From contig CACWQH010000016.1 of NCBI GenBank assembly GCA_902762955.1, positions 1 to 47,561 of the forward strand: a stretch of 47,561 nt of DNA, written 5' to 3'. This document shows, piece after piece, positions 15,751-37,863 of this stretch. Position 1 is the first letter of the stretch. Each line of letters begins with the position of its first letter. The stretch is from an uncultured Lachnospiraceae bacterium (lineage in GTDB: Bacteria > Bacillota > Clostridia > Lachnospirales > Lachnospiraceae). Both the position numbers and the translations under genes were made by a program. The notes beneath the pieces were generated by a model. It had not been told where the DNA came from, did not search any database, and saw nothing but the letters and a program-made list of their open reading frames with translations.

Positions 15751-15820
15751 AACATTAACCTCCTATTATTAATTATAAATTTATAGATTTAAAAAATCTA
15801 AAAAAATATTTTCAATATAG

Positions 15821-15894
15821 TGTTCCCGAGGCGATTCGAACGCCCGACCTACCGCTTAGGAGGCGGTTGCTCTATCCTGCTGAGCTACGGAAAC
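15821..15894 (-). tRNA. tRNA-Arg (anticodon CCT)
   Basis: Minus strand, 74 nt including discriminator A. The acceptor stem GTTTCCG/CGGGAAC has one T-G pair. The D arm is GCTC...GAGC, the anticodon stem ACCGC/GCGGT with loop CTCCTAA gives anticodon CCT, which reads AGG. The T arm GGGCGTTCGAATCGCC is normal. The 3' CCA is not encoded. Confidence 0.96.
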
Positions 15895-15976
15895 AAATTT
15901 TTGCTTTAACAAAACAACAAATAATATATCCTTTTGCTATTTAGGTTAAAGCATTTTAAAAAATTACACTCTTTAC

Positions 15977-16005
15977 ATTATACAACTTAGAGGCATAATT
16001 CTCAA
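15977..16005 (-). promoter_or_regulatory. Promoter upstream of tRNA-Arg
   Basis: Minus strand: TTGAGA at 16005-16000, a 17-bp spacer and TATAAT at 15982-15977. Transcription would start near 15970, leaving a leader of about 75 nt before the tRNA. Confidence 0.75.
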
Positions 16006-16048
16006 GTAAAATTACGTCGATAGGTCATAGTAAAAAACGGAAAAACAA

Positions 16049-16924: not shown

Positions 16925-17011
16925 AAAATCTCCTTACATAACTTTCTAATTAATACTGCTTGTAAATGAATAAGCTTATGAACAAATCAATAAAAGGTAT
17001 CTTTGTTTTAA

Positions 17012-18292: not shown

Positions 18293-18307
18293 TTTTTTCT
18301 CCTCACT

Positions 18308-18952: not shown

Positions 18953-18971
18953 GTTAAACAACTCCGTTTTT

Positions 18972-19898: not shown

Positions 19899-19939
19899 TT
19901 AGTTTTTTTCCTCCTAATTTGTCGTGATGTGTATTACTG

Positions 19940-20731: not shown

Positions 20732-20895
20732 TTCTCTAACCTCCGTATGTATTCAACATTATAGCACTATCCGACATCTTTCGCTATATCTAAATGTAGT
20801 AAGATTATTTTATTTAATACAATATGTAGAATTATATGTGTAAATCATATATTTTACAGAGATTTTGAATATATTTTTTTCAAAAAAATAATAAA

Positions 20896-20911
20896 TGTTT
20901 CACGTGAAACA
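20896..20911. promoter_or_regulatory. parS: parS site 1 (perfect)
   Basis: TGTTTCACGTGAAACA, the full 16-bp palindrome bound by Spo0J/ParB. Confidence 0.95.
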
Positions 20912-21003
20912 TTTGGATATATCTTTTGGCTTATAATTTTTTGCTTTTGACTCTTATAATCTATTATTGATAATATTTTTTGAAATTTTTATTTTGGTTT
21001 ATA

Positions 21004-23958: not shown

Positions 23959-24004
23959 AAGAGACAACCGGGTGGCAGAGAATCACGTCGGCTGTCTCTT
24001 TTTT
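23959..24004. terminator. Bidirectional terminator between the Tim44-like gene and the XRE gene
   Basis: AAGAGACA-A-CCG (23959-23970) pairs with CGG-C-TGTCTCTT (23989-24000), followed by more T. It sits between convergent genes. Confidence 0.8.
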
Positions 24005-24329
24005 ACAATTTATGCGCTAAGCCTTTCATATATGTTATAGCGAGTTCCTGGTCTTCGGGGGTTAATATGCTAAAAAGATTAAGGCACTCGGACTGCTCAG
24101 GCAAAAGCGCGTCAGATTTTGGATTGAGCTGAAAAAATTGAAGTATACTTATACCAAATCCATTACATAGCTTATAAAGCGTCGGAAGTGTTGGTGAATT
24201 GTTTTTTAAAATCATACTATTTAAGGTTGAATACGCTATGTTGGATCGCTTAGCTAATTCATAATAAGAATAATGTCTTTCATTACATAAATCTTTGATG
24301 CGTTTAATAGCGTCAAATTCGCTTGTCAT
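24003..24329 (-). CDS. XRE-family helix-turn-helix regulator
   Basis: 108 aa. The HTH spans about 8-62: IKDLCNERHYSYYELAKRSN, then IAYSTLNSMILKNNSPTLPTL and YKLCNGFGISILQFF, the normal Cro/C1 spacing. The remaining 40 residues may serve oligomerisation. AGGAGA precedes the ATG. It is transcribed away from the large FHA/kinase operon that starts 400 bp to the right, the usual position for a local repressor. A perfect palindrome overlapping the operon's -10 box is a likely target. Part of the same 13-bp sequence occurs inside this gene (24143-24155). Confidence 0.87.
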   Translation of the reverse strand: MTSEFDAIKRIKDLCNERHYSYYELAKRSNIAYSTLNSMILKNNSPTLPTLYKLCNGFGISILQFFQLNPKSDALLPEQSECLNLFSILTPEDQELAITYMKGLAHKL

Positions 24330-24650: not shown

Positions 24651-24679
24651 TTGTAAAACTAACGATTATTTGGTATACT
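24651..24679 (+). promoter_or_regulatory. Promoter of the FHA/kinase operon
   Basis: TTGTAA at 24651, a 17-bp spacer and TATACT at 24674-24679. A transcript starting near 24686 would have a leader of about 45 nt to the first gene. Confidence 0.75.
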
Positions 24680-24685
24680 TATACC
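24672..24685. promoter_or_regulatory. Palindromic operator candidate over the -10 box
   Basis: GGTATACTTATACC: perfect 6-bp arms around 2 bp, covering the whole -10 box. A bound XRE dimer here would block RNA polymerase. Confidence 0.6.
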
Positions 24686-24730
24686 ATATAACGCAAAAGA
24701 GTTATAAATAATGTACAAAGGGGATGGCTT

Positions 24731-26137
24731 ATGGGTAATACTATTTTTTATAGGGATATCAAAAAAAATCCCAATAGAATTACATTTAAAGAAATATTTT
24801 CCGAATGCACAAAGAAACATAGCAGAAGAGATTTTGATTATCAGATGTCGGCCGGTATGGACTTCAATCAGGCTTCGGAAAGTGATATGTTGCAAAAATG
24901 GCAGAAGCCTTGGTTATTTTACAGGTTGTTCATTATCGGTGCAATAATAACTGCTATAATTGTTGGATTTTACAAGCTTATGCCGAAGCTTTTGGATGGT
25001 CTGGACTATGGTACGGCGATTATGGTTATGTTTGTTATTCCGATGATTGTTCCTTTTATTGTTGCTGTTTTTTATTGGGAAATGAATATTCCGAGAAATA
25101 TAGCGCTATATGAGGTTGTCCTTTCAATTATCATAGGTGGTTCTTTATCCTTTTTCGTAAACATGGTTATTAATAAGTTTGGCTCGGAGAAGCTTCATGA
25201 GGCTGCTTATGCGGGTGTTTATGAAGAACCGGCAAAGCTTATAGCGGCACTTATCATAATTGCCGTATTGTTTAAAGGTAAAAAAATATACGGGTTGACA
25301 GGAATAGTAATAGGCGGCGCTGTAGGAGCGGGCTTTTCTGCATTTGAAGCGATGTCATATGTTTTTTCAAATTTGATGACTACGGGTGACTTAACAGGAA
25401 TGGCTAAATACTATTTTCAAGCAAGATTCCTCGGAGCATTTGCCGGTCATCTTACAAGAGCTGCAGCGATAACAGGAGCCGTAACTTTACATACCGAAAA
25501 AAATAAAATAACGATTTCTTCATTTTTAAATTCCGATTTTATAATAATGCTTGCGGCGACGATAACAACACATTATATAAATAATTCGAATGATGTTATG
25601 TCTGCACTTGGAATAGACAGCGAAATGAAATGGTATATTTTTAAAATAGGATTGGATATTGTTGAGTGGTTAGTCCTTTTGTTTATATTAAGGAAGTGTT
25701 TGTATCAGGCAGTTGTAAGAGGAAGATATCAAAGCGGAGAAGGAATTGGTTATACTGAGGCTGTCGGTTCCATGGGAGGAGAAATTGCTGCGAATGCACA
25801 GATGGCAGCAGCCAATGCTGCAAGAATTACCGTTATGAGTGTTGAAGGTGCTATAAAAGGAGCGGTTTGGCAGTCAAACGGAGGAGAAACTCTTTCTATA
25901 GGACGTGAAGAGGGCAATACATTTAAAATACCTTCAAATGTTGCGGGTATAAGCAGAAAGCATTGTATTATTAAATACTCGTCCGGAAGGTGGGTAATAG
26001 TTGATCTTAATTCGTCATATGGAACCTCGGTAAACCGGGTCAAGATACCGGCCAATACCGAACAGCCTTTAAGAGAAGGAGATATCATTTATCTTGGAGG
26101 ATCGGGACAGGCGTTTAAGGTTTCTTATAAATCTTAA
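24731..26137 (+). CDS. PrsW-type intramembrane protease fused to a C-terminal FHA domain (copy 1)
   Basis: 468 aa. Residues 60-325 form a polytopic domain with about eight helices and the PrsW family motifs: YEEPAKL (Glu165, Glu166), FSAFEAMSY (Glu206), His240 in FAGHLTR and His281 in TTHYINN. PrsW enzymes cut membrane anti-sigma factors. After a linker, 380-465 is an FHA phosphothreonine-binding domain: SIGREEGN, GISRKHCII and LNSSYGTSVN carry the Arg, Ser, His and GT positions. An N-terminal cytoplasmic segment of 60 residues is shared with copy 2. The ATG follows AAAGGGGATGGCTT. It is first in the operon. The fusion suggests proteolysis steered by kinase activity, but the substrate is unknown. 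Confidence 0.85.
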   Translation: MGNTIFYRDIKKNPNRITFKEIFSECTKKHSRRDFDYQMSAGMDFNQASESDMLQKWQKPWLFYRLFIIGAIITAIIVGFYKLMPKLLDGLDYGTAIMVMFVIPMIVPFIVAVFYWEMNIPRNIALYEVVLSIIIGGSLSFFVNMVINKFGSEKLHEAAYAGVYEEPAKLIAALIIIAVLFKGKKIYGLTGIVIGGAVGAGFSAFEAMSYVFSNLMTTGDLTGMAKYYFQARFLGAFAGHLTRAAAITGAVTLHTEKNKITISSFLNSDFIIMLAATITTHYINNSNDVMSALGIDSEMKWYIFKIGLDIVEWLVLLFILRKCLYQAVVRGRYQSGEGIGYTEAVGSMGGEIAANAQMAAANAARITVMSVEGAIKGAVWQSNGGETLSIGREEGNTFKIPSNVAGISRKHCIIKYSSGRWVIVDLNSSYGTSVNRVKIPANTEQPLREGDIIYLGGSGQAFKVSYKS

Positions 26138-26212
26138 AAGTAAATTTTGTTATGTGTATATACATATATATTAACAGATTACTTTTTATACTACAGAACA
26201 TGGAGGGTTAAA

Positions 26213-27652
26213 ATGTCAAATACGGTTTTTTACAGGGATGTTAAAAAAAATCCGAATAAAATAACTGTTAAAGAAATATTATCAGAATGCACGAAAAAAC
26301 ACAGTAAGAGAGATTTTGATTATCAATTGTCGGCAGGAAGCGAATTCAATACGGCTACAGAAAGGGATATGCTTCAAAAATGGCAAAAACCATGGATATT
26401 CTATAAGCTGGCAGTAGTGGGGCTTATAGGCATGGCTGCTTTGTTTGGGTTTGATCTTCTTTCCAATAAGATTCTTGGAGAGGGAGGCTGGTACCCTGCT
26501 TCCGCAACTATGGCGATAGTTGTTCCACCGCTTATTGTTCCGCTTATTATTACTGTGTTTTTATGGGAATTAAATATACCAAGAAATATTGCTCTTTATG
26601 AAGTGTTTTTGGCTTTTATGTCCGGAGCAATTTTATCACTATTTACAAATCTGATATTAAGACAGGTAGGTTCGGGTAAGCTTGCGGAGGATGCGGCATA
26701 TGCAGGTGTTTTTGAAGAGCCTGCCAAGCTTTTGGCGGCGATTATATTGCTGACGGCACTTTTTAAAAACAAGAAAAAGATGTATGGTATGTCAGGACTT
26801 GTTATAGGCGCAGCGGTAGGTGCCGGATTCGGTGGATTTGAATCTGTATGGTATACGCTAGGTAATACACTTTTAGCGGGAAATCTTGATATAGCAAAAT
26901 TCTTTTTCATGAATCGTTTTATCGGAGGATTCGGAATGCATACGGTATGGTGTGCCGGTTATACGGCAGCACTTGCCCTGCATACAAATAAATCAAAAAT
27001 ATCCGGAGAATCATTTTTAAATGCTGATTTTGCAATAATGTTTGCGGGAGCCGTATTGACACATTTTCTTAATAATAATGATACAACGTGGACGACACTT
27101 GGAGCCGTTGAGGATGATGGCAGTCTAAATGAAGCGGTTTATATAATGATTCAAATAGGTCTTCGCGTAATTGAGTGGCTTATCCTTTTATACATTATAA
27201 AAAGATGTTTATATCAGGTTGTTTCACTTGGAAGATATCAAAGTGGTGAGGGAATAGGTTATACGGAGGCAGTCGGTAATTTAGCTAATAATATGGCCGG
27301 AGCACAGATGGCAGCATCCGTAGCAGTGCCTGCAAGAATTACAGTGGTTTGTATGAGTGGTGCGTTAAGAGGAGCAGTATGGCAATCATCAGGCACAGGA
27401 GACAGTTTAACCATAGGTCGTGATGACGGAAACCGGTTTAAGATTCCATCAAATGTTGCCGGAATAAGCAGACAGCATTGCGTCATAAAATATTCTGCTA
27501 ATGGATGGACAATTACGGACCTTAATTCTTCATACGGAACATCGGTTAATCAGGTTAGGCTTGCACCGGGAACGGAGCAACCGTTAAGAGAAGGAGATGT
27601 TATTTATCTTGGTGGCTCTGAGCAGTCATTTAAGATTTCTTATAATTCTTAG
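26213..27652 (+). CDS. PrsW-type intramembrane protease fused to a C-terminal FHA domain (copy 2)
   Basis: 479 aa, a paralogue of the preceding gene along its whole length, including the first 60 residues (MSNTVFYRDVKKNPNKITVK compares with MGNTIFYRDIKKNPNRITFK). PrsW motifs are present: FEEPAKLL, FGGFESVWY, the GMHTVW His and THFLNNND. The FHA domain has TIGRDDGN, GISRQHCVI and LNSSYGTSVN. GGAGGG sets the ATG at 26213, 66 nt inside the longest frame. It lies 75 bp after copy 1. The membrane part has diverged more than the FHA part, so the copies may cut different targets while reading similar phosphosites. Confidence 0.85.
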   Translation: MSNTVFYRDVKKNPNKITVKEILSECTKKHSKRDFDYQLSAGSEFNTATERDMLQKWQKPWIFYKLAVVGLIGMAALFGFDLLSNKILGEGGWYPASATMAIVVPPLIVPLIITVFLWELNIPRNIALYEVFLAFMSGAILSLFTNLILRQVGSGKLAEDAAYAGVFEEPAKLLAAIILLTALFKNKKKMYGMSGLVIGAAVGAGFGGFESVWYTLGNTLLAGNLDIAKFFFMNRFIGGFGMHTVWCAGYTAALALHTNKSKISGESFLNADFAIMFAGAVLTHFLNNNDTTWTTLGAVEDDGSLNEAVYIMIQIGLRVIEWLILLYIIKRCLYQVVSLGRYQSGEGIGYTEAVGNLANNMAGAQMAASVAVPARITVVCMSGALRGAVWQSSGTGDSLTIGRDDGNRFKIPSNVAGISRQHCVIKYSANGWTITDLNSSYGTSVNQVRLAPGTEQPLREGDVIYLGGSEQSFKISYNS

Positions 27653-27723
27653 GATGAAGAATTGTTGTAATAGAATTGTAAGTAATAAAGCTTATATGAT
27701 AATAAAAGACAGGGGGAAAAGAT

Positions 27724-29145
27724 ATGTATTTAAAAAACAAAAAGAAAAAATACATAATGAGTTTTTTGTTTGCGATAGCATTTGTTATAACTGCAATCGC
27801 GCCTGCTAATATTTCCAAGGCAGAGGATGAAGATTTGTTTTCAGGTCTTGAAAAGGTGGCATTTACAGATGGTTCAAGCTCGGGAGCCTCGGGATATGCA
27901 GGATTATCCGGTGTGGTAGGAAGTGTTGACTCAAGCGGAAATGTATTGGCTGTAGATTATGCAGTTGCATTAAGCGGAGGTATTATCTTTTCATCAACAA
28001 ATGCTTATGCAGAAGGTGCGGCAGGATATGCTTTTGTATCTGCGATGGAAGGTCAGTGTGTGCTTCAATATGAAGGTCAGGATTCAAGTCTGGGTGCAAC
28101 CAAGTGGACTGTTGCAAGTGGATCCGAAGACGCGACATTTATGAATGTAACATATCCGTACGAAAACCAACAGGCAACTTTATATTGCTTTGATTCACAA
28201 GGCAATGCGATTTCCATGGGTGTAGTAATTACCGGATACAACATGGTAAATGATTACTGTATGCTTGATGTAGGAACAGATGGTGATACTTCACAGATTG
28301 CTTCATTGGGAGTAATATGTGATGCTAACGGTTCGGTTGTTGCCATTCTGTTTTCGGGTGGTGTTATGGCTCCGTATTTTGATGAAAGTCTTTTCTATCA
28401 GTCAGGCGGTGGTGGTACCAGCAACAATAATAATAACAATAATAACAACAATAACAACAATAACAACAATAACAACAATAATAATAACAATAATAATAAC
28501 AATAGCAACAATAATAACAGTAATGATAAAAAAGATGGAATTAAAAAATATTGGTGGGTTCTTCTTATCGTTGCAGCAGGCGGAGTTTATTTCTATATGA
28601 ATAAGAATAAAAACAATGGCAATGGCTATGGCGATGATGGTTCAGCAAAGGATATAGCTTTAGACGGAGGACCTTACAATAGTAATTCAGGTAGTTCAGT
28701 GGGAGGTGCTTCAAACAGTGATATAGGTGCAACCGCTCCTTATACTCCACCGATGGATGATATTGCACCAACGGCTCCGGCAAGTGCAGCACCGGTTTCA
28801 CAGCCAAGTGCACCATCACCTTCACCGACAGCTACAAGCTATAAGCTTCATGCAGTAGGTGGATATATGGATGGAAGAGTTTATCCGTTTGATGGCAAGG
28901 AGATAACCTTTGGACGTGATAATTCGGTAAGTATTAAGTTCCCTCAGGAAACAAAGGGTGTAAGCCGCATCCACTGTAAGCTTTATATGCAGGGTGGAAA
29001 GGTTATGCTTATGGATTTGGGCTCAAGTTACGGAACATTTGTTGAAGGAAAAGGAAAGATTCCGGCACAGTCTCCGGTTGAAATCAAACCGGGTGATAAG
29101 TTCTGTGTAGGTGAACAGAAGAATTCCTTTGTATTAAAGCTTTAA
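27724..29145 (+). CDS. Signal peptide, extracellular domain, poly-Asn stalk, membrane helix, cytoplasmic FHA
   Basis: 473 aa. Residues 1-32 form a signal peptide ending near SKA. An exported domain (about 33-225) follows, rich in Gly, Ser and Ala, with two or three Cys. Its SLGVICDANGSVVAILFSGG resembles the end of a trypsin-like beta-barrel that has lost its active-site Ser; this is tentative. Next comes a run of 27 Asn (234-260), a membrane helix (277-293), a Pro/Ser/Ala-rich linker, and an FHA domain at about 380-470 with FGRDNSV, GVSRIHCKL and LGSSYGTFVEG. GGGGG before the ATG supports the start. It probably senses outside and docks phosphoproteins inside. Confidence 0.82.
   Translation: MYLKNKKKKYIMSFLFAIAFVITAIAPANISKAEDEDLFSGLEKVAFTDGSSSGASGYAGLSGVVGSVDSSGNVLAVDYAVALSGGIIFSSTNAYAEGAAGYAFVSAMEGQCVLQYEGQDSSLGATKWTVASGSEDATFMNVTYPYENQQATLYCFDSQGNAISMGVVITGYNMVNDYCMLDVGTDGDTSQIASLGVICDANGSVVAILFSGGVMAPYFDESLFYQSGGGGTSNNNNNNNNNNNNNNNNNNNNNNNNNNNSNNNNSNDKKDGIKKYWWVLLIVAAGGVYFYMNKNKNNGNGYGDDGSAKDIALDGGPYNSNSGSSVGGASNSDIGATAPYTPPMDDIAPTAPASAAPVSQPSAPSPSPTATSYKLHAVGGYMDGRVYPFDGKEITFGRDNSVSIKFPQETKGVSRIHCKLYMQGGKVMLMDLGSSYGTFVEGKGKIPAQSPVEIKPGDKFCVGEQKNSFVLKL
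28423..28521 (+). repeat. AAT/AAC triplet tract coding poly-Asn
   Basis: 27 consecutive Asn codons (28423-28503), then Ser, four Asn, Ser and Asn. AAT and AAC are mixed, so it is not a perfect microsatellite, but short sub-runs could slip in whole codons. Confidence 0.95.
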
Positions 29146-29246
29146 ATAATAGTGTATTAATTGGCATTATCGTGGGCATTGTTGCAGTGTGCCTGATAAT
29201 TGCAGTAATAATAAAAATCAAGAAAAAGTCTAAGGAGGATAACGAT

Positions 29247-29864
29247 ATGGAAATCGTAAGATGTGAAAAAGGTCATTTCTATGATGCAGAAGCAAATTCA
29301 AGCTGCCCACAGTGCGCAGCAGAAGCAGGAGGAGCAGCTCCTTCATTTACACAGGCAGCTATGAGTGGTGGTTATGGTGCAACTGAACCGGCAGGCTATA
29401 TGGGAGAGACCATGGCAGTAGAAAATCCGTCAGGTTTATTTGAAGCTCCGGGCAGTTCAGCAGGTGGCGTAGAGGATTATGATGGTGCAACACAGCCTGT
29501 AAATATGGGTGGAATTTCAGGTTTTTCTCCTGTAACAGGATGGCTTGTATGTGTTGATGGTCCTGCAAGAGGAACTGATTATAGAATCAAGGCCGGATAT
29601 AATTATATCGGAAGAGGCGAAGATATGGATATAAGTATCCAGGGTGATCAGAAGATAGGCAGAGAAAGACATGCACTTATCGCTTATGATCAGGAAGAAA
29701 AAGTATTCTTCTTTGGCCCTGCAGATGGCAAGAGCATCGTAAGATTAAACGGAAAGATGGTTATGACTCCTATGCAGGTTAATTCACATGATGAGATTAC
29801 CATTGGTTCAACTAAGTTACTGTTCATACCGCTTTGCGGAGATAAATTTGATTGGAATGAGTGA
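29247..29864 (+). CDS. Zinc-knuckle protein with an FHA domain
   Basis: 205 aa. The N-terminus MEIVRCEKGHFYD...CPQCA has a likely zinc-binding pair of Cys and a His. A Gly/Ala/Ser-rich, Met-rich linker (30-95) follows, with DGATQPVNMG and YGATEPAGYMG; Thr residues before Glu/Gln-Pro could be phospho-acceptors. FHA covers about 105-195 (YIGRGEDMDISI, GRERHALI); the usual GT-N part is altered to SIVRLNGKM. AAGGAGG directly upstream favours the ATG at 29247. The frame is open further upstream and encodes a membrane helix (about 29154-29225), which has no good start codon. Confidence 0.75.
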   Translation: MEIVRCEKGHFYDAEANSSCPQCAAEAGGAAPSFTQAAMSGGYGATEPAGYMGETMAVENPSGLFEAPGSSAGGVEDYDGATQPVNMGGISGFSPVTGWLVCVDGPARGTDYRIKAGYNYIGRGEDMDISIQGDQKIGRERHALIAYDQEEKVFFFGPADGKSIVRLNGKMVMTPMQVNSHDEITIGSTKLLFIPLCGDKFDWNE

Positions 29865-29866
29865 TT

Positions 29867-31138
29867 ATGATTTATAAGGGATATGAATATTTTATAGAAA
29901 TGGAAGAATCGGATGATTCCATAATAAATCTTGGCAAGCCGACGGAAGATAAAACTGAGGATGGAACCGAGGAAGCAACGGAAGATGTTACGGAAGAAGC
30001 TTCAACAGAGGAAGAATCTCAAGGGCAAGGCCGAAAGGATAAAAAGGATAAGACCGAGGAAGAAACAACAACTGAGGATAGTACAGAGGAAGGCTCTTTA
30101 ACAGGAGTAGGTCTTACTACGGAAGAGGCTGTAGAGGATACTACAGAAGAGTTGATTACAACAACTGAGGCGGCTGAAGAGTCTGATGACTCAAAGCAGG
30201 GACTTAATCTTACAACGGTTTTTGGTATAACCAGTGCAGTTTTATTGCTTATAGTTATCTATCTTGCCGGTGCACTTTCAAAGCTTAAAAATAAGCAGAA
30301 TAACTATGATGATTCAGATGATGATTATTCTGATTCTTCAAGTGGTTTCTCCGGTGAGGTTGCCGAGACAGGTCAGAGTGAGATTTCGAATTTATCAAAG
30401 ACGGCTGAAGACAGAGTAGGTAAGCTTCACAATATCGGTAGAAGAAAGGGTCAGCAGGACAGCCTTGGTCTTACCGAATATAATGGTGGAACTCTTGCTA
30501 TCGTTGCAGATGGTATGGGTGGACTTGCAGACGGAGACAGAGTAAGTCAGAAGATAGTTATGACTCTGCTTCAAGATTCTTCAAAGTTATCAGGTGGTTC
30601 ACCTGACAATAAGCTCTATGAAATGATTGCTCATGCTAACAGAGAGGTCAATCAGATGCTTGGTCCGGAGGGCTTATATAAGAGCGGTTCCACGCTTCTT
30701 GCAGTTATGGCAGAAAAGGATGGTTTCCACTGGGCAGCAGTAGGTGACAGCCATATATACCTTTACAGGGCCGGAAAGCTCCTTCTTATGAACCGTGAGC
30801 ATGTCTATGAGGCTGAGCTTATTCAAAAGGCAATAAACGGAGAGAATTCCTTTGCAGAGATAAAGACCAATCCTAAAAAGAGCGGACTTACCAGCTTTAT
30901 AGGAATGGGTAATCTGAAGTATATCGATGGAAGTATCGATAAGGTTGCATCGGGTGAAGGCGACTGGATTCTTCTTATGAGTGACGGTGTATTTAATACC
31001 GTTCCTGAACCGGATATGTGCAAGCTTTTAAATGATGCACCTTCAGCTAAAGTTGCAGCTGAAAGGCTTGAACAGGAGGTCTTAAGAAGACAGAATCCAA
31101 AGCAGGATAATTTTACAGCAATAATATTGGAATTGTAA
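29867..31138 (+). CDS. Membrane-anchored PP2C-family Ser/Thr phosphatase
   Basis: 423 aa. The first 110 residues are strongly acidic and Thr/Glu-rich (repeated TEE and TED), then one membrane helix (115-136) and a PP2C domain from about 185 to the end. Metal-binding motifs are present: QQDSLG, IVADGMGGLADGD, AAVGDSHIYLY, LLMSDGVFN and DNFTAIIL. The enzyme should remove phosphate from Thr/Ser, presumably undoing the operon kinases. It overlaps the previous gene's end region: the previous TGA ends at 29864 and the ATG is at 29867. A GTG at 29861 is a possible alternative. No cleavable signal peptide is seen, so topology of the acidic part is uncertain. Confidence 0.87.
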   Translation: MIYKGYEYFIEMEESDDSIINLGKPTEDKTEDGTEEATEDVTEEASTEEESQGQGRKDKKDKTEEETTTEDSTEEGSLTGVGLTTEEAVEDTTEELITTTEAAEESDDSKQGLNLTTVFGITSAVLLLIVIYLAGALSKLKNKQNNYDDSDDDYSDSSSGFSGEVAETGQSEISNLSKTAEDRVGKLHNIGRRKGQQDSLGLTEYNGGTLAIVADGMGGLADGDRVSQKIVMTLLQDSSKLSGGSPDNKLYEMIAHANREVNQMLGPEGLYKSGSTLLAVMAEKDGFHWAAVGDSHIYLYRAGKLLLMNREHVYEAELIQKAINGENSFAEIKTNPKKSGLTSFIGMGNLKYIDGSIDKVASGEGDWILLMSDGVFNTVPEPDMCKLLNDAPSAKVAAERLEQEVLRRQNPKQDNFTAIILEL

Positions 31139-31174
31139 GATACGGATTTTAATTTACTATGTGGGGTAAATGAT

Positions 31175-32482
31175 ATGGAGTTATATAATCTTTGTACAAA
31201 TTGTATGAATGGTTCTACAGAAAGGTATATATGTCCTACCTGTGGAAAGCCGGCTGATTGGGACACTAACCGGCCTGCAACAGCTTTGCCTGCAAAGTAC
31301 ATTTTGGGCGGGCAGTATTATCTTGGAAAGGTAATAGGCTGCGGAGGCTTTGGAATAACCTACCTCGCATGGGATACAAATTACAACAGAAGAGTTGCGG
31401 TTAAAGAATTATTTCCAAATAAGGATGTAGTCAGAGACCGTAACGGAAATAATATCAATGTTATATTGGGTCAGGAGGATTATGTAAAACATATAAAGAA
31501 GCGTTTTCTGGAGGAGGCGCAGGCTTTATATGCATTTTCCTCAGAACCCGATATAATAAATGTTTACAGATTGTTTGAAGAAAACAATACGGCGTATTAT
31601 GCCATGGAATACCTGGAGGGTATGGATTTAAAGTCTACCCTTTTAAAGCGTGGAAAGATGAAATGGGATCAGTTATCCGTTTACATGAATATGGTTATTA
31701 ATTCCCTAAAGTCAATCCATGCAAGAGGACTTATTCACAGAGATATAAGTCCGGATAATATATTTCTGACTACAAATGGCAGAGCCAAGCTTATAGATTT
31801 TGGCTCACTTCGAAGCTATAACAATCCAAATGGACTGACAACTATATTAAAGCATAACTTTGCACCGTATGAGCAGTATCAGACAAACGGAAATCAAGGT
31901 CCGTGGACGGATATATATGCTCTATGTGTTACTATGTATTATTCGCTTGGCGGAGTATTGCCTCCTAAGGCACCGGATAGAATTATGGCGGATAAAACCG
32001 TTAATATCAGGCAGCTTTGTCCTGATGTCCCGGACAATGTTGCAAATGCTATACATAAGGGTATGGCGGTTATACCGCAGGACAGATTCCAGACTGTAGA
32101 TGAGCTTTCAAGAGCTTTATTTGGAAGCAATCAGGTTAATCAGTATATCGGTATTCAACCCGGACAGCAGACCAGGGTATCATATCCGCATCTCGAATTT
32201 TATGGAAGCCTAAATGGTAAGAAATGGTATATGAAGCCGGGTTCGAGTATTGTTATCGGAAGAGATACCAGCTGTGATATACAGTTCCCGACCAATACCG
32301 GTGGTGTAAGCCGCAGACAGTGTATGGTTTATGTCGATGATGATCAGAAAATCTGGATCAAGGATGAAAATTCATCCTACGGAACATTTTTAAACGGTCA
32401 GAGAGTTCCGGCGGGTGGATGGCTTGAGGCTCAGAGAGGATATGTAATAAGCTTCGGAAAAGAACAGATAAAGATTTTATAA
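31175..32482 (+). CDS. Ser/Thr protein kinase with N-terminal zinc ribbon and C-terminal FHA domain
   Basis: 435 aa. A zinc ribbon (Cys7, Cys10, Cys20, Cys23: CTNC...CPTC) comes first. The Hanks-type kinase domain spans about 45-320: Gly loop IGCGGFGITY, Lys77 in VAVKELF, Glu113 or Glu114, catalytic HRDISPDN (Asp190, Asn195), and DFGS (Asp208). All needed residues are present. FHA is at about 345-435 with VIGRDTSC, GVSRRQCMV and NSSYGTFLNG; the usual SxxH His is replaced by Gln. There is no membrane helix, so it is cytoplasmic unless recruited. It follows the membrane phosphatase by 36 bp. Confidence 0.93.
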   Translation: MELYNLCTNCMNGSTERYICPTCGKPADWDTNRPATALPAKYILGGQYYLGKVIGCGGFGITYLAWDTNYNRRVAVKELFPNKDVVRDRNGNNINVILGQEDYVKHIKKRFLEEAQALYAFSSEPDIINVYRLFEENNTAYYAMEYLEGMDLKSTLLKRGKMKWDQLSVYMNMVINSLKSIHARGLIHRDISPDNIFLTTNGRAKLIDFGSLRSYNNPNGLTTILKHNFAPYEQYQTNGNQGPWTDIYALCVTMYYSLGGVLPPKAPDRIMADKTVNIRQLCPDVPDNVANAIHKGMAVIPQDRFQTVDELSRALFGSNQVNQYIGIQPGQQTRVSYPHLEFYGSLNGKKWYMKPGSSIVIGRDTSCDIQFPTNTGGVSRRQCMVYVDDDQKIWIKDENSSYGTFLNGQRVPAGGWLEAQRGYVISFGKEQIKIL

Positions 32483-32507
32483 TTGATTAAAGATAAAGGA
32501 TGAAAAA

Positions 32508-35500
32508 ATGGAAGTAAATCGCTGTTTAAATTGTATGGAAGAAACTGAAGATGCAGTGTGCCCTAAGTGTGGTTTTAATTATTATAAAATATATGAACAG
32601 CCACCTATGGTATTGAAGCCAAATACGGTTCTTTATGGAAGGTATCTTGTCGGAAAGATGATCGGACAGGGCGGATTTGGTATGACTTATATCGGCTTTG
32701 ATTTGCTTCTTAATATAAAGGTTTGTATAAAGGAATACTATCCTATGGGAAGTGTTAGCAGGGATAATACCGTAAGTAATCTTATTCAGTGGAATTTTAC
32801 CACTAATAAGGAGGAACAGTGGAGAGAAGGCTGCGAGAGCTTTCTTAAGGAAGCCAGAAAGATGGCAAAGCTGGATTCTATCTCCGGTATAGTAAGAGTC
32901 AGGGATACCTTTTATGAAAATCAGACTGCTTATATTATCATGGATTTCATTGAAGGTAAGACTCTTAAACAGTATCTTCAGGAAACAGGAACCATGGATT
33001 TTGGTACCTGCATAAATATGCTTGCACCTATGATGAATAGTCTTTCCAAGGTTCATGGGCAGGGACTTATTCATAGAGATATAAGTCCTGACAATATGAT
33101 GGTAACCAAGGATGGCAGTTTAATGTTGCTTGATCTTGGTGCTGCAAAGGATGTAAGTAACGGCAGAGAGGGCATGTCACAGCTCGTTACCAAGAGAGGC
33201 TTTTCACCTGCAGAGCAATATATGGAAAGCGGATCTGTTGGTCCTTGGACAGATGTATATGCATTTTGTGCAACCATGTATTATTGTATGTATGGAAAGC
33301 TTATACCTGAGGCTATGGAAAGACTCATGCAGGATACACTTTCATTTCCGCCTCTTCCAAACGGAAGTGAACTGCCGGAGGATATAAAGGTAACTCTTAC
33401 GGATGGTATGGCGGTTCATACCGAAAACAGAATTCAGACTATGGATGAGCTTTTTGCAAGGCTTTCACCATATGTTACAATGCCTAATCCGGAAATGTTA
33501 AGTACAATGCAGGCATATAGTCAGACTGCAAATAATAAAAAGAAGAAGGACAGGAAAAAGAAGAAGAAAAAGCTCGCCAAGGTTTTGATACCGGTTTTCA
33601 GTGTTTTAATTCTTGCGGCAGCGGCCATATTATTATTTTTATTTAAGCCGTGGCTTCCTAAGGTGGAAAAGCTCGGAAATTCAAACAGCAATATACTTAA
33701 TGATGGTGGTCTGCTTATAAAAACAAAGGAGTATGAATATTTCCTTGACCATAATAAAAACCTGAGAATGTGTACCTACGACGGATATAACGGATGCTTT
33801 TATGTGGATTCATCGGTAATAGTTGCCGAAAATACTATGTATATTAATCAGGGAAAAAATAAGATATATTTTATGCAGGATGACGGCACAGACAGTGTAA
33901 AAATCTACAGCATGGACTTTGACGGAAGTAATTTAAGTGTTTTGGCGGAAGGCTTAAATACTTCTATGCTTATGCAATATGCTCTTTTGTCAAACGGTAA
34001 GGAATATCTTTATTATATTACCATGAATGATAACCAAACCCATCCCGTACTAAATCGTTGTGATGCCAAAACCGGAAAAATCGAAACGGTTATCAATGAG
34101 GATATGTGCTGGTATAATCTGGACGGTAAATACATTTATTACACGGTTTTTGATGATAATAACAAGACTTATCTTAAAAGGGCAGCTCTTGATGGTAAAC
34201 ATTCAAAGACCTTGAATAATGATAAGTATTTTTGTTATGGATTTATCGAAAATGATTCGATTTTCATCTACTCACTTTCGGATAAGGCTATGTATGTACT
34301 TGATATGAAGGGTAACAAAAAGACGGTATTATATGATGCACCGATGGATACAAGAAGCTTTACCTTTGCATATGGTGATGGCTGGATTTATTATATGAAT
34401 GAAAAAGAAGGCGGGGTATATCGCATACGGGAAGATGGTACTGCCAATGCCTGTCTTATAGAAGAAAAAACCTTTATATCAATATGTTTTGATTCCGACG
34501 AGCTCTGGCTTCAGGAGTGTAGATATGATGCGGACGGCAATTCAACGAACCTTCAATCCTTCCTATGCTATAAGGATGGAACTACGGTTATTCCTATAGA
34601 CGAGTCGGAGATTTTAAAGACGGAGGACGGTCTATTATATAGAACGTCTGATGATGGTGAAACTTATATTATCTGCGGTTATGAGGGAGATGAGGATATT
34701 GTCGGTATACCATATGAAATAGACGGAGTTTCAGTATCCAACATTGACACCGATTCCTTACCTTCGGATAAGAAATTTTTGGTTTATACATATGACGATG
34801 ATTTTGAATATAAAAAGACTGATGACGGAACGGGAATCATCATAACAAAATATAAAGGCGACATATGTAATTTTATCATTCAAGATAGTATAGAGGGACT
34901 CCCGATTGTTGAAATAGGCGAGGATGCTTTCGAGGCGAGTGATGTTGAGACGGTGGCTATACCTTCGACAGTTAAGAAGATAGACCGGGATGGTTTTTAT
35001 AATTGTAAGAAGCTTGAAAAAATATATCTAAGCGAGGGACTTGAAGAAATAGGGCAGGATGCATTTAATAGTACGGCGCTTACCGAAATTGACCTGCCGG
35101 ATAGTCTTATAAAGCTGGGTAGCGGCTGCTTTGCATATACAAAAATTAAAAAGGTGAGTATTCCTAAAAATGTAAACAGTATTCATTCATTAGCCTTTGC
35201 TTATTCTGAAATAGAAGAATATGACGTCGATAGAGCTAATGATACATTTGCTTCAAGCGAGGGAATAATTTATCTTAAAGATATGAAAACGCTGTGTATG
35301 TGTCCGTCCGCTAAATCAGGCAGCGTGGTTATCTCTGCTGATGTTACGACTATCGGTGGCGGAGCCTTTATATGCTGCAATAACATCACGGAAATAAGCC
35401 TTGAGGAGGGTTCACAGCTTAATGAAATAGGATGTGCATTTTGTTACTGTACCGGTCTTACCAGGCTTGATTTATCCAAGAGCGGAAACAGTATAGCTTC

Positions 35501-35684
35501 GGAAGCTTTGGTTGGTTGTTCAAGCCTAAGTGAAATATATTTTCCAAAGGATTTAAAGACTATATCTGCAGATTTATTTGGTGATGACGGTGTACCTTCT
35601 TCAGTAAAAGTCGTTAAATATAATGCTGAATGCGACTGTCAGATTGAGTGGCCGGAGAGTGTTGAAGTACAGACTTATGAATAG
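32508..35684 (+). CDS. Receptor-like Ser/Thr kinase: zinc ribbon, kinase, membrane helix, propeller-like region and LRR_5 repeats
   Basis: 1058 aa. It has a zinc ribbon (CLNC...CPKC, 6-21). The kinase domain (about 44-320) has IGQGGFGMTY, Lys75, HRDISPDN (Asp191, Asn196) and DLGAAKD, in which Leu replaces the usual Phe. A Lys-rich stretch precedes a membrane helix (359-379). The outside part has a region of YYxxxDG-type repeats (about 395-720) resembling DUF5050-like propellers. A BspA/LRR_5-type leucine-rich section (about 800-1040) follows, seen in EIGEDAFEASDVETVAIPST and similar units. It looks like a sensor kinase with a large ligand-binding exterior. It follows kinase 1 by 25 bp. Confidence 0.9.
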   Translation: MEVNRCLNCMEETEDAVCPKCGFNYYKIYEQPPMVLKPNTVLYGRYLVGKMIGQGGFGMTYIGFDLLLNIKVCIKEYYPMGSVSRDNTVSNLIQWNFTTNKEEQWREGCESFLKEARKMAKLDSISGIVRVRDTFYENQTAYIIMDFIEGKTLKQYLQETGTMDFGTCINMLAPMMNSLSKVHGQGLIHRDISPDNMMVTKDGSLMLLDLGAAKDVSNGREGMSQLVTKRGFSPAEQYMESGSVGPWTDVYAFCATMYYCMYGKLIPEAMERLMQDTLSFPPLPNGSELPEDIKVTLTDGMAVHTENRIQTMDELFARLSPYVTMPNPEMLSTMQAYSQTANNKKKKDRKKKKKKLAKVLIPVFSVLILAAAAILLFLFKPWLPKVEKLGNSNSNILNDGGLLIKTKEYEYFLDHNKNLRMCTYDGYNGCFYVDSSVIVAENTMYINQGKNKIYFMQDDGTDSVKIYSMDFDGSNLSVLAEGLNTSMLMQYALLSNGKEYLYYITMNDNQTHPVLNRCDAKTGKIETVINEDMCWYNLDGKYIYYTVFDDNNKTYLKRAALDGKHSKTLNNDKYFCYGFIENDSIFIYSLSDKAMYVLDMKGNKKTVLYDAPMDTRSFTFAYGDGWIYYMNEKEGGVYRIREDGTANACLIEEKTFISICFDSDELWLQECRYDADGNSTNLQSFLCYKDGTTVIPIDESEILKTEDGLLYRTSDDGETYIICGYEGDEDIVGIPYEIDGVSVSNIDTDSLPSDKKFLVYTYDDDFEYKKTDDGTGIIITKYKGDICNFIIQDSIEGLPIVEIGEDAFEASDVETVAIPSTVKKIDRDGFYNCKKLEKIYLSEGLEEIGQDAFNSTALTEIDLPDSLIKLGSGCFAYTKIKKVSIPKNVNSIHSLAFAYSEIEEYDVDRANDTFASSEGIIYLKDMKTLCMCPSAKSGSVVISADVTTIGGGAFICCNNITEISLEEGSQLNEIGCAFCYCTGLTRLDLSKSGNSIASEALVGCSSLSEIYFPKDLKTISADLFGDDGVPSSVKVVKYNAECDCQIEWPESVEVQTYE

Positions 35685-35722
35685 CAGGATTTGAAATTTA
35701 TATAATTAAAGGTGGATTTAAT

Positions 35723-36448
35723 ATGGTAGAAGTTGCGCAGCTTACAGGTCAGGGCGGAAGACCTTATAACGAGGATACTATAGGAATATCACAGGAGAAT
35801 AATCGTACCTGTGTTGTGGTTGCTGATGGTGTCGGTAGCAGCGGAGGCGGCGAGATTGCGTCGAGAGCAGCGACGGAGGCTATAATAGAGCAGTTTTTGA
35901 ATAACCGCATGAACAATGCTGATGAGATGGCTGAAGCAATTCATGTAGCCAACAAAGAGGTTATAAAAAAACAAGACGATAAGGTTCAGATGAAAACTAC
36001 GGTTGTATGTCTTGTAATAGATGAATTTGAAAATGCCAGGTGGGCACATGTAGGAGATTCGAGGCTCTACAGGTTCAAAAATGGTGAGCTTATATATCAG
36101 ACTGCGGATCACAGTGTTTCACAGATGGCAGTTTTTATGAATGAGATAACCACAAGCCAGATTCGTTTTCATGCGGACAGAAGTAAGATTTTAAGAGCTC
36201 TTGGAAGTGACAGCGCCGAGCCGGATGTGGTGGATGATGTCCATCTTGAAGCTGAAAAAGGATTTCATGCATTTTTACTATGTACGGACGGCTTTTGGGA
36301 GTATGTATATGAGGCAGAGATGAGCAAGCTTTTAAAGCAGGCACATACACCGGAGGAATGGTTAAATGGAATGAAGCTTATCTTAGACAGCAGAGCTCCT
36401 GAAAATAATGATAATTTTTCTGCGGCGGCAGTCTTTGTAGCATCATAA
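35723..36448 (+). CDS. Soluble PP2C-family Ser/Thr phosphatase
   Basis: 241 aa, almost entirely a PP2C domain: GRPYNEDTIG, VVADGVGSSGGGEIASRA, WAHVGDSRLYRF, LLCTDGFWEY and ENNDNFSAAAVF supply the metal-binding acidic residues. There is no membrane helix or extra domain. It resembles the stand-alone phosphatases found next to Hanks kinases in Gram-positive bacteria. AAAGGTGG precedes the ATG. It is the last gene of the operon, just before a strong hairpin, and is the second phosphatase in the unit; one is tethered and one free. Confidence 0.93.
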   Translation: MVEVAQLTGQGGRPYNEDTIGISQENNRTCVVVADGVGSSGGGEIASRAATEAIIEQFLNNRMNNADEMAEAIHVANKEVIKKQDDKVQMKTTVVCLVIDEFENARWAHVGDSRLYRFKNGELIYQTADHSVSQMAVFMNEITTSQIRFHADRSKILRALGSDSAEPDVVDDVHLEAEKGFHAFLLCTDGFWEYVYEAEMSKLLKQAHTPEEWLNGMKLILDSRAPENNDNFSAAAVFVAS

Positions 36449-36454
36449 TATATG

Positions 36455-36496
36455 TAAGTTATGGGGACAGGCAAGTGTGCCTGTCCCCATAACTTA
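36455..36496. terminator. Strong hairpin closing the operon, also REP-like
   Basis: Arms 36455-36473 and 36478-36496 pair perfectly over 19 bp around a 4-nt loop (core ATGGGGACAGGCA...TGCCTGTCCCCAT). A T-run follows at about 36499. The GGGGACAGGC palindrome resembles REP-type elements mobilised by REP-associated transposases in Firmicutes, so it may be both a terminator and a repeat element. Confidence 0.8.
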
Positions 36497-36602
36497 TGTT
36501 TTTTATGGTTGCATTTAAAAGAATAAAAATGTACTGGAATGTAGCAGGATTATGTGTTATCTTTATGCATAGGATAGTAAAAGATATGGAGAATTTTTTA
36601 AT

Positions 36603-37275: not shown

Positions 37276-37863
37276 ATGCAGATTGTACTTGCGTCACAGT
37301 CTCCGAGGAGACGTGAGCTTTTAGATAGAGCGGGGTTTTTATTTGAGGTTATCCCTTCTGATAGGGATGAGATTATTACAAAGACTATACCAAGCGAGGT
37401 GGTTTGTGAGCTTTCATATCAAAAGGCTATGGATGTATATGAAAAGCTGGCAAATCAAGAAAACTATCTGGTTATAGGTGCTGATACGGTTGTGGCATCT
37501 GAAGGTGAGATTTTGGGAAAGCCAAAATCCAAGCAGGAAGCATATGATATGCTTAAGAAGCTCGCCGGAAAGGATCATGAGGTATACACCGGAGTAACTT
37601 TTGTATATAATGAAGATGTATTGAAAAGTCACACATTTTTTGAATGTACCAGGGTTACATTTTACCCTATGACGGATAAGGAAATTAATGATTATATAAA
37701 AACCGGTGATCCGATGGATAAGGCGGGAGCCTATGGTATTCAGGGACCTTGCGGGATATATATCGAAAAGATAGACGGAGATTATAATAACGTTGTGGGA
37801 CTTCCGATTGCAAGAGTCTATCAGGAGTTAAAGGAGCTCGGATTATATGAAGTGGGGATTTAG
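37276..37863 (+). CDS. maf: Maf-like nucleoside triphosphate pyrophosphatase
   Basis: House-cleaning enzyme hydrolysing non-canonical or modified nucleoside triphosphates (dTTP/UTP or m7GTP, by subfamily). 195 aa. The signature LASQSPRRRELLDRAGF is followed by GADTVVASEGEILGKPKS (catalytic Asp), HEVYTGV and DKAGAYGIQG. GGGAG eight bases upstream makes the ATG at 37276 the best start; two in-frame ATGs lie 6 and 18 nt further out. The last 17 nt overlap the start of the AAA+ gene in another frame. Confidence 0.93.
   Translation: MQIVLASQSPRRRELLDRAGFLFEVIPSDRDEIITKTIPSEVVCELSYQKAMDVYEKLANQENYLVIGADTVVASEGEILGKPKSKQEAYDMLKKLAGKDHEVYTGVTFVYNEDVLKSHTFFECTRVTFYPMTDKEINDYIKTGDPMDKAGAYGIQGPCGIYIEKIDGDYNNVVGLPIARVYQELKELGLYEVGI

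Follow-up and report, generated by a model that had tools for sequence, protein, structure and literature searches.

An operon of PrsW-FHA proteases, Ser/Thr kinases and PP2C phosphatases in a Lachnospiraceae bacterium: a possible unit of phosphorylation-gated membrane proteolysis

The window, the whole stretch of DNA analyzed here, comprises 47,561 nucleotides from an uncultured Lachnospiraceae bacterium. Between positions 24731 and 36448 it contains eight genes, all on the plus strand. Based on open reading frames and Pfam domains, these encode two PrsW-FHA proteases, one membrane FHA protein, one zinc-ribbon FHA protein, two PP2C phosphatases and two zinc-ribbon Ser/Thr kinases. The genes and their flanking features are as follows (TM, transmembrane segment; pThr, phosphothreonine).

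24003..24329, minus strand: divergent HTH_26 protein of 108 aa (Pfam HTH_26, 5.1e-9)
24651..24679, plus strand: candidate promoter TTGTAA-17-TATACT with TG before the -10 element (consensus match only)
24666-24691: inverted repeat of 12 bp, 92% complementary, overlapping the -10 element of the candidate promoter
24731..26137, plus strand: PrsW-FHA 1, predicted intramembrane metalloprotease with a C-terminal FHA domain (Pfam PrsW 6.5e-11, FHA 9.7e-17)
26213..27652, plus strand: PrsW-FHA 2 (Pfam PrsW 2.5e-11, FHA 7.6e-18)
27724..29145, plus strand: protein with a signal-peptide-like start, predicted pseudo-S1C ectodomain, Asn-rich linker, TM and FHA domain (Pfam FHA 5e-14)
29247..29864 (ORF open from 29172), plus strand: zinc-ribbon FHA protein with a non-canonical pThr pocket (Pfam FHA 6e-5)
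29861..31138, plus strand: PP2C phosphatase preceded by a TM and a Thr/Glu-rich N-terminal region (Pfam PP2C_2 6.2e-14)
31175..32482, plus strand: zinc-ribbon Ser/Thr kinase with a C-terminal FHA domain, no TM called (Pkinase 3.4e-31, FHA 2.3e-14)
32508..35684, plus strand: zinc-ribbon Ser/Thr receptor kinase with TM, DUF5050 and BspA-type LRR region (Pfam LRR_5 7.8e-41, Pkinase 1e-26, DUF5050 2.5e-20)
35723..36448, plus strand: soluble PP2C phosphatase (Pfam PP2C_2 9e-16)
36453..36498, plus strand: strong, terminator-like hairpin with a T-run

FHA domains exceeded the Pfam cut-off in the products of 24731, 26213, 27724, 29172/29247 and 31175, as did two PrsW, two Pkinase and two PP2C_2 domains, confirming the domain content given in the initial annotation (five FHA proteins, two kinases, two PP2C phosphatases and two PrsW proteins). 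For the zinc-ribbon FHA gene, the ATG at 29247 has a better ribosome binding site (AAGGAGG) than the GTG at 29172. With gene starts at 24731, 26213, 27724, 29247, 29861, 31175, 32508 and 35723, the intergenic gaps are, in order, 75, 71, 101, -4, 36, 25 and 38 bp; the largest, 101 bp, agrees with the earlier description of eight co-directional genes separated by less than about 105 bp. The genome has seven FHA genes, and four lie within 12 kb of one (p ~1e-4, a rough value assuming uniform placement).

The initial annotation had also proposed one promoter and one strong hairpin for this gene set. A consensus match does lie at 24651-24679, and a like -35/-10 arrangement was read by eye upstream of the cluster in two related loci (L025 and L027), but promoter-like sites are hardly commoner in the region than in shuffled sequence (61 versus a mean of 56.2). 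Likewise, the hairpin is a strong one, but shuffled sequence has about as many terminator-like sites as the region (8.8 versus 10), and the hairpin's palindromic core, GGGGACAGGC...GCCTGTCCCC, is present at three places in the genome, so that the hairpin at 36453-36498 may be a small dispersed element. Judged by its position over the -10 element, the inverted repeat at 24666-24691 is a possible operator. We count the HTH gene at 24003-24329 as belonging to the picture, and it is possibly the operon's own regulator; a homologue lies upstream of the cluster on the opposite strand in L025, L027 and L068, making four loci with the window. The upstream genes 21855 and 22656 were considered as members and rejected: 22656 was found again in three near relatives (L023, L024 and L025), and 21855 only in L025.

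The two PrsW-FHA proteins are 59% identical. PrsW-FHA 1 keeps EExxK, FxxxE and two His residues, both window copies retain the catalytic motifs, and each joins its PrsW domain to an FHA domain, in line with the earlier assignment of two intramembrane proteases. Across 54 sequences, the individual motif residues were found in 51 to 54. From these residues, both copies are predicted to be motif-intact intramembrane proteases. The AlphaFold2 model of PrsW-FHA 2 shows, by our own reading, about eight long membrane-spanning helices, followed by a disordered linker (residues 342-372) and the FHA domain. A Foldseek search with a PrsW-FHA model had FHA-bearing chains among the matches listed and was uninformative on the PrsW part. 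The PrsW-FHA fusion was noted in 2012 by Zhang et al. and independently predicted to form signalling peptidases; the same article also describes zinc-ribbon fusions (PMC3482391), which some of the relatives studied here carry as well.

The FHA domains differ in how well they preserve a canonical binding pocket. Arg and Ser are both kept in the pseudo-S1C-type (23/23), S1C (19/19) and kinase-FHA (21/21) classes; among 57 PrsW-FHA domains, Arg is kept in 52 and Ser in 56. In the zinc-ribbon protein at 29247, the pThr-contacting Ser is replaced by Arg, as in 31 of the 38 domains of its class, and in the window's kinase FHA domain a conserved His is replaced by Gln, as in 11/21. Asn contacts pThr in the Rad53 FHA domain; this position is Tyr in the window's other four FHA domains and in most FHA domains compared (for example, 38/57 in PrsW-FHA). 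The claim of five phosphothreonine readers thus stands as five FHA domains, not all of which look like canonical readers.

The gene at 27724 had been described as encoding an outward FHA protein. We re-identify its ectodomain as being of a degenerate trypsin/S1C type. Aligned with active S1C-FHA relatives, it has lost all three catalytic motifs (His, Asp and Ser) expected of an S1C/HtrA protease; scored by pattern among 19 S1C-FHA relatives, His and Ser are each kept in 17 and an Asp motif in 15. The AlphaFold2 model has pLDDT values of 88-96 over residues 61-220 (blocks of ten). Foldseek matched it with a probability of 1.00 to the RsgI9 S1C domain, MamO and DegS, with query TM-scores of 0.35-0.45 among the matches listed, the best match being the sensor part of RsgI9 (PDB 7sjy; TM-score 0.41), so that a trypsin-like fold is predicted. 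We therefore regard 27724 as a degenerate trypsin/S1C-type sensor, with a predicted trypsin fold and without catalytic residues. Active and dead S1C-type FHA proteins lie side by side in eight loci, offering an example, within a single gene cluster, of a protease that became a sensor.

Both kinases appear catalytically equipped: 31175 keeps Lys, the HRD Asp and the DFG Asp, and 32508 keeps Lys, the HRD Asp and a DFG-type Asp, the three positions being kept in 77 of 90 kinase domains including these two. Five kinases of relatives differ in their C-terminal regions (DUF5050, LRR_5 in two, Sel1 and LRR_4), as expected for variable input on a constant circuit; one protein scanned as a kinase in a relative (L053:15162) had no Pfam kinase match. 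The soluble PP2C encoded at 35723 reaches 148.9 bits with the Stp1/IreP model of NCBIfam, below the cut-off of 230.

We compared the locus with its relatives in a neighborhood census that drew on 80 of the 211 relatives found. The bacterium is related to gut and rumen species, and its relatives hold much the same set on one strand. Kinase and PP2C genes were present in the fetched flanks of 38/49 other PrsW-FHA loci, compared with 1/30 loci in which no FHA domain was called on PrsW (Fisher 2e-11, loci not being independent), and all 264 of 264 further cluster genes, in 50 loci, share the strand of PrsW-FHA. These counts argue that the gene grouping is not due to chance; they also bear out the expectation of a conserved unit and exclude that homologues occur only as unlinked genes. 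A TM-PP2C gene is found in 33/49 PrsW-FHA loci, and an FHA-only gene followed by TM-PP2C, with 20 occurrences, is joint first among adjacencies. Part of the shortfall in the 11/49 loci without a kinase-plus-PP2C call is technical, since six of them are no longer than 12,230 bp and in two, L037 and L055, divergent genes for a kinase and a PP2C score above the Pfam cut-off. A match spanning both PrsW and FHA was found in only 6/299 family genomes, the source genome included, and a genome of the same genus (G180) is without the unit, which is thus an accessory function. G180 does not offer a clean empty site: ParA is differently arranged, and a single DUF436 match, 47% identical, lies on a separate contig. 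Carriers include [Clostridium] asparagiforme DSM 15981, Blautia sp. MSJ-9 and Murimonas intestini DSM 26524, the last with a record flagged UNVERIFIED_CONTAM.

Because relatives keep the set together on one strand, the eight genes look like an undescribed signalling unit. Our favored mechanism, by inference, is phosphorylation-gated membrane proteolysis. It builds on features with direct support: the order of the genes, their domains and catalytic motifs, the recurrence of the set in further genomes and the predicted pseudo-S1C fold. In full, this reading, to which we give an even chance, is of one transcription unit encoding a membrane Ser/Thr-phosphorylation circuit whose output is cleavage by PrsW, which its own FHA domain would recruit. 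Sensing of something outside the cell would fall to the LRR/DUF5050 receptor kinase and to the pseudo-S1C ectodomain, and the two kinases would phosphorylate threonines on cluster partners, namely the single-pass proteins ending in FHA or PP2C domains, and on each other. The FHA domain of PrsW would then dock on a phosphorylated partner, and PrsW would cleave this partner within its membrane segment or close to it, so that the sensor is shed or its cytosolic domain set free. The PP2C phosphatases would reset the circuit, the zinc-ribbon FHA protein may act as a scaffold rather than a canonical pThr reader, and the HTH protein may tune transcription. In gene content the operon agrees with the closed module that the initial annotation proposed, with regulated proteolysis as its presumed end. 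The directons of relatives, however, share no general output gene: among 135 unclassified ORFs in the same directon, only five groups occurred in at least three loci, and none in more than six. The ultimate target is probably the product of a gene outside the operon, and the substrates of PrsW-FHA might have no connection with the cluster. A more novel version, which we put forward tentatively and consider less probable, is a receptor array with threonine phosphorylation as the direct gate of an intramembrane protease: receptor kinases would mark the cytosolic tails of sensors (active or dead S1C, vWA or LRR ectodomains), PrsW-FHA would dock and cut the sensor free, and PP2C would reset the system. 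If true, phospho-gated shedding by a protease that is itself fused to a phosphothreonine reader would amount to bacterial transmembrane signalling of a new kind. To our knowledge, few links between bacterial Ser/Thr kinases and membrane proteolysis have been described. The conserved unit places a writer and an eraser next to a reader, a receptor and an intramembrane protease, and it is present in named strains such as Blautia sp. MSJ-9, which makes such a link directly testable.

Other outputs for such a circuit can be envisaged. A sigma-W-like pathway, in which PrsW-FHA cleaves an anti-sigma factor, the kinases gate this step and an ECF sigma factor provides the transcriptional output, has a precedent in the characterized PrsW, which catalyzes site-1 cleavage of RsiW (PMC3482391). 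In one genome (G114, locus L011), the gene after one of the cluster's FHA genes encodes an ECF sigma factor, and the structure ranked first for the pseudo-S1C domain is the sensor part of an anti-sigma protein (PMC12203970). However, no sigma or anti-sigma domain, and hence no cognate pair of such genes, was found by Pfam in the window's operon, and an ECF call was made in only 2/45 PrsW-FHA loci (domains ranked by E-value, not score), making this pathway unlikely. Control of envelope or growth, as by the mycobacterial fhaA-fhaB-pstP-pknA-pknB genes with proteolysis added for turnover, seems distinctly unlikely: the protein classes are the same, FHA precedes PP2C (the 20 occurrences above) and there is domain-level similarity to FhaB (NCBIfam), but no FhaB score exceeds 38.0 of 125 bits, Pfam found no PASTA, RodA or penicillin-binding domains in the operon, and occurrence is patchy. 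The same patchiness would suit an anti-phage or conflict system, and one theme of predicted conflict systems joins kinase, PP2C and vWA genes (PMC7159879). PADLOC matched the kinases to PD-T4-6 and Mad6 models, the soluble PP2C to PDC-M21C and the dynamin-FHA protein of a relative to LeoA. These matches are generic, those of the kinases spanning the generic kinase domain, or weak, as for the Asn-rich stretch of 27724 (2.5e-4); PrsW-FHA, zinc-ribbon FHA and the one VWA-FHA protein scanned had no match, and no nuclease, toxin or immunity family exceeded the Pfam cut-off in the operon. We have rejected this assignment as the least probable of all.

It is also very improbable that the operon regulates a type VII secretion system (T7SS) encoded elsewhere in the genome, its kinases, phosphatases and FHA proteins controlling EssC assembly. 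T7SS subtypes c to j often have kinases, PPM phosphatases and vWA or FHA proteins (PMC11217815), and EssC exceeded its cut-off in 12/34 cluster-bearing genomes versus 42/200 family genomes, which served as background for EssC only and not for WXG100; this excess is not significant (Fisher 0.079). A thirteenth genome (G312) has a split EssC just below the cut-off as well as WXG100 genes, with the cluster and part of EssC about 17 kb apart on one contig, but in the other 12 of these 13 genomes EssC and the cluster are apparently on separate contigs, many of which are short. Neither EssC nor WXG100 exceeded the cut-off in 21/34 cluster-bearing genomes, among them the complete 6.35-Mb chromosome of [Clostridium] asparagiforme DSM 15981. 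In the source genome, which is 88.9% complete, the best match to the EssC/TsxC ATPase model TIGR03928 scored 109.6 bits against a cut-off of 778.4, and WXG100 (PF06013) had no match, extending to the genome the initial observation that no secretion ATPase or substrate gene is present. A home-made WXG100 profile found no match in loci L008-L022 and L023-L101, where 58/59 EssC-model matches lie below model position 300, in the FHA part, and the remaining one, which extends to 305, is to an FHA protein of 278 aa. The searches of the source genome and the 34 cluster-bearing genomes thus gave no support for type VII secretion as the parent system.

For the unit as a whole, no description was found in the literature searched, the PrsW-FHA fusion itself having been known since 2012. 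Zhang et al. (PMC3482391) describe the same joining of PrsW intramembrane peptidase and FHA domain, but their main text names the fusion only, and no operon with kinases, PP2C, S1C-FHA or VWA-FHA. T7SSc-T7SSj likewise bring together Ser/Thr kinases, PPM phosphatases, vWA and FHA proteins in Bacillota clusters (Garrett et al. 2024, PMC11217815), but their sets contain the TsxC ATPase and the WXG100 protein TsxA, neither of which was found here. PrsW-FHA and S1C-FHA are not named for them in the portions of that survey consulted, nor is the present set, consistent with the view that it had not already been described as a type VII locus. Domain matches in fetched T7SS loci were 24-46% identical to cluster proteins over local stretches. 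RsgI9 of Clostridium thermocellum (PDB 7sjy; PMC12203970) also carries an S1C protease-like sensor domain on a single-pass signalling protein, but it is of the anti-sigma type rather than an FHA protein, and its TM-score to the pseudo-S1C domain is only 0.41. As in TerY-P, kinase and PP2C genes lie together in the window, but Pfam found no vWA gene in its operon; in L037 and L055, PrsW-FHA lies close to genes for vWA, PP2C and kinase, each of which exceeds its Pfam cut-off. The TerY-P triad consists of vWA, PP2C and kinase, and type VI secretion control employs PpkA, PppA and Fha. The mycobacterial operon fhaA-fhaB-pstP-rodA-pbpA-pknA-pknB likewise unites two kinases, a TM-PP2C and FHA proteins; it encodes a PASTA kinase, RodA and a penicillin-binding protein, none of which was found between 24731 and 36448, whereas the window's unit has LRR_5 and DUF5050 in place of PASTA and is set apart by its predicted intramembrane proteases and pseudo-S1C sensor.

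The eight genes lie on contig C16 (the window) of a 2.65-Mb assembly of 81 contigs that is 88.9% complete. As the initial annotation described, they share one strand and are closely spaced, with intergenic gaps of at most 101 bp and one overlapping pair. The features are as follows.

24651-24679: promoter-like site
24731-36448, + strand: the eight genes, including two PrsW-FHA genes (intramembrane metalloproteases with a C-terminal FHA domain; copy 1 at 24731, copy 2 at 26213), a zinc-ribbon FHA protein, a TM-PP2C and a soluble PP2C
27724-29145, + strand: membrane FHA protein with a signal-peptide-like start, ectodomain, Asn-rich linker, TM segment and FHA domain
+ strand, same span: two kinases, one a zinc-ribbon kinase with FHA, the other a zinc-ribbon kinase with TM, DUF5050 and BspA-type LRR
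36453-36498: strong hairpin with T-run

Of the single promoter and single strong hairpin proposed initially, the hairpin is indeed strong, whereas the promoter rests on its position and on a like arrangement, read by eye, in two related loci (L025 and L027), because promoter-like sites were no commoner than in shuffled sequence (61 versus 56.2). Terminator-like sites were likewise not above shuffles (10 versus 8.8). The hairpin core, GGGGACAGGC/GCCTGTCCCC, is present at three genomic sites, so it may be a dispersed small palindrome that also serves as a terminator. At ~21 kb the GC skew turns from mostly negative to positive (noted for window 11311-21000). Because this switch lies beside MnmG and RsmG homologues and ParA/ParB look-alike genes (named by eye), the operon may be near the origin of replication and on the leading strand.

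To find relatives, we queried 84,980 species genomes with an alignment of seven PrsW-FHA proteins, which gave 580 pattern-matching stretches, 211 of them encoding a relative. The best 80 of these 211 relatives, corresponding to 79 loci, were compared using domain profiles made from window and relative proteins, with flanks fetched up to 10 kb a side. PrsW-FHA was encoded in 49 of the 79 loci; the other 30 had PrsW without an FHA call, or no PrsW. By architecture-based classes, which do not prove orthology, the flanks of the 49 loci contained a kinase in 40, PP2C in 39 and both in 38, an FHA-only protein and TM-PP2C in 33 each, kinase-FHA in 20, S1C- or pseudo-S1C-FHA (the class of the membrane FHA protein and its active relatives) in 21, another tm-tm-FHA protein in 16, VWA in 15 and dynamin in 1. 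Kinase and PP2C occurred together in only one of the 30 remaining loci (L068), and any of the classes in four (Fisher 2e-11 for the kinase-plus-PP2C linkage, in a similarity-ranked sample including near relatives). Because of this ranking, the flank counts are not population rates. Across 50 loci (the window plus the 49), all 264 further cluster genes lay on the PrsW-FHA strand. The gene-neighbourhood comparison establishes the parts of the unit and their linkage, and its flank counts exclude the alternative that homologues exist only as unlinked genes.

Eleven PrsW-FHA loci lacked both calls together (L024, L031, L037, L044, L045, L049, L055, L060, L062, L067 and L069). Six of these span at most 12,230 bp, L045 has PP2C, L069 has kinases, and L037 and L055 carry divergent kinase and PP2C genes above the Pfam cut-off; in the latter two, Pfam confirmed vWA, kinase and PP2C. 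L037, L049, L051 and L055, in which PrsW-FHA lies near a vWA gene of one family, are a second kind of PrsW-FHA locus. At L025:8423-9905 the first PrsW-FHA copy is broken into two overlapping ORFs, with the second copy intact.

The unit is rare, patchy and taxonomically broad. Matches at 1e-15 were found in 10 of 299 family genomes, six of which, counting the operon's own, spanned both PrsW and FHA; at 1e-20, 30 of 391 class genomes matched, three spanning both parts (own genome again counted) and the remainder covering either PrsW or FHA. A same-genus genome (G180, 100% complete) had no match in either search, and none of the cluster domains was present in the 19 kb surrounding its ParA gene. 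Records labelled Lachnospiraceae, Ruminococcaceae, Oscillospiraceae, Monoglobus and Selenomonadaceae are among the carriers.

Between 51 and 54 of 54 sequences keep the positions of the PrsW motifs EExxK and FxxxE and two His, the exceptions being gaps and one Tyr; within a selected set of 20 rows these positions do not vary. For copy 2, the AF2 model (mean pLDDT 84.6) places the FHA domain behind a disordered linker (342-372); by our reading of its helices there are eight membrane-spanning segments, so both ends would face one side of the membrane. For FHA domains, we scored phosphothreonine-contact columns (Arg, Ser, Asn) chosen from the contacts of Rad53. Arg and Ser were kept in 23/23 pseudo-S1C-type, 19/19 S1C and 21/21 kinase-FHA domains; in PrsW-FHA, Arg was kept in 52/57 and Ser in 56/57, and in VWA-FHA each in 12/14. 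Not all of the five phosphothreonine readers proposed initially look canonical: in the FHA-only class, to which the zinc-ribbon FHA protein belongs, Ser is replaced by Arg in 31 of 38 domains, the window's among them. Tyr occupies the Rad53 Asn position in most FHA domains (38/57 in PrsW-FHA), and 11 of 21 kinase FHA domains, that of the window included, have Gln in place of the structural His; both substitutions speak against a plain canonical FHA reading.

Lys, HRD Asp and DFG Asp were all kept in 77 of 90 kinases, some of the rest being gaps. Five of six relatives' kinases scanned with Pfam had a kinase match plus DUF5050, LRR_5 (two), Sel1 or LRR_4; the sixth, L053:15162 (Big_2 and MORN), had no Pfam kinase match. 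At L054:14525-19117 and L059:3336-8357, LRR_5 or LRR_4 regions come after the cluster kinases, an arrangement resembling plant LRR receptor kinases in mirror image.

For the membrane FHA protein, Pfam returned FHA and otherwise weak or chance matches, whereas relatives at L015:13281 and L017:13527 have a Trypsin_2 ectodomain above cut-off. A 23-row alignment (identities low, 13-24% except the two nearest rows) showed a D-x-x-G-x-V-hydrophobic strand common to both types, and the window type without the TNxHV, DxAxL and GNSGG motifs. AF2 gave a beta-rich ectodomain core (pLDDT 88-96 at residues 61-220, in blocks of ten), from an alignment whose last four rows are active-type relatives and may bias the model to that fold. 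Its best Foldseek matches were RsgI9 S1C, MamO, DegS and HtrA structures (E from 9e-7, probability 1.00), with low query TM-scores of 0.35-0.45 among the matches listed. Because the RsgI9 S1C peptidase-like domain is described, in the accessible text of PMC12203970, as able to bind cellulose, the analogy suggests at most a ligand-binding role. Both types occurred together in eight loci, S1C alone in nine and pseudo alone in fourteen, window included, some pseudo rows being tm-tm-FHA proteins whose shared fold is not proven. The Asn-rich linker that joins its ectodomain to the TM segment is encoded by a 9-bp (or 12-bp) tandem repeat (28422-28524).

Upstream of the cluster, the window and the loci L025, L027 and L068 each carry an opposite-strand HTH gene. 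Among 135 unclassified ORFs of the directons no gene was generally recurrent; five groups were shared by at least three loci, the largest by six. One genome has an ECF sigma gene with the cluster (G114) and another a dynamin-FHA gene (G147). At L012:13698-18338, from the Lachnospiraceae genome that also holds L030, dynamin-FHA and a second dynamin gene adjoin the cluster, a possible membrane-remodelling output. We infer a Ser/Thr-phosphorylation circuit in which PrsW-FHA would be recruited through its own FHA domain and would then cleave; in this general form we judge the chances to be even, and that phosphorylation gates PrsW directly seems rather doubtful.

The alternative that the cluster is a type VII secretion (T7SS) locus draws on T7SS loci having kinases, PP2C, VWA-FHA and FHA proteins with distant likeness to the cluster proteins. 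In line with the initial annotation, which saw no secretion ATPase or substrate gene, the own genome had no WXG100 and no EssC above cut-off. Among 34 genomes bearing the cluster (drawn from 33 of the 49 loci and from L068), EssC was above cut-off in 12, WXG100 present in 12 and neither found in 21; the EssC excess over the family background (42/200) was not significant (0.079). G312 would make a 13th, as it has WXG100 genes and an EssC that is split and falls slightly under cut-off. EssC and the cluster were apparently on different contigs in 12 of 13 genomes with EssC regions fetched; in G312 they share a contig, ~17 kb apart. With neither marker above cut-off in 21 of 34 carriers and in the own genome, this identity for the cluster was not supported. 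An AAA ATPase (37847-39550), three genes downstream of the hairpin, is related to SpoVK, EccA and CbbX and fell under all three curated cut-offs.

The initial annotation knew of no described system with this set. For the whole unit, no paper was recognized as describing it among the matches listed, most subscription journals being outside the scope, which is weak evidence of absence. For the fusion itself, the accessible text of Zhang et al. 2012 reports PrsW fused to PilZ, cyclic-nucleotide, FHA and zinc-ribbon domains in several bacteria and considers such fusions more likely signalling peptidases. In the accessible part of a 2025 survey of bacterial PP2C, FHA is named once, in a legend.

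As far as the accessible text of Garrett et al. 2024 goes, T7SSc-j contain kinases, phosphatases, vWA and FHA proteins, and the cluster shares their kinase, phosphatase and FHA classes; all novel subtypes have the ATPase and WXG100, whereas the genome of the cluster has neither above cut-off. Contig C15 of this genome carries a second module (L008:3-11917) of two FHA proteins, one with DUF6382 by Pfam, a PP2C, a TM kinase and an Ig-like-domain protein, and a separate DUF6382-FHA gene (L009:10254-11747). Although found in a genome with neither marker above cut-off, the C15 module resembles, by the same partial account, components of T7SSe and T7SSj.
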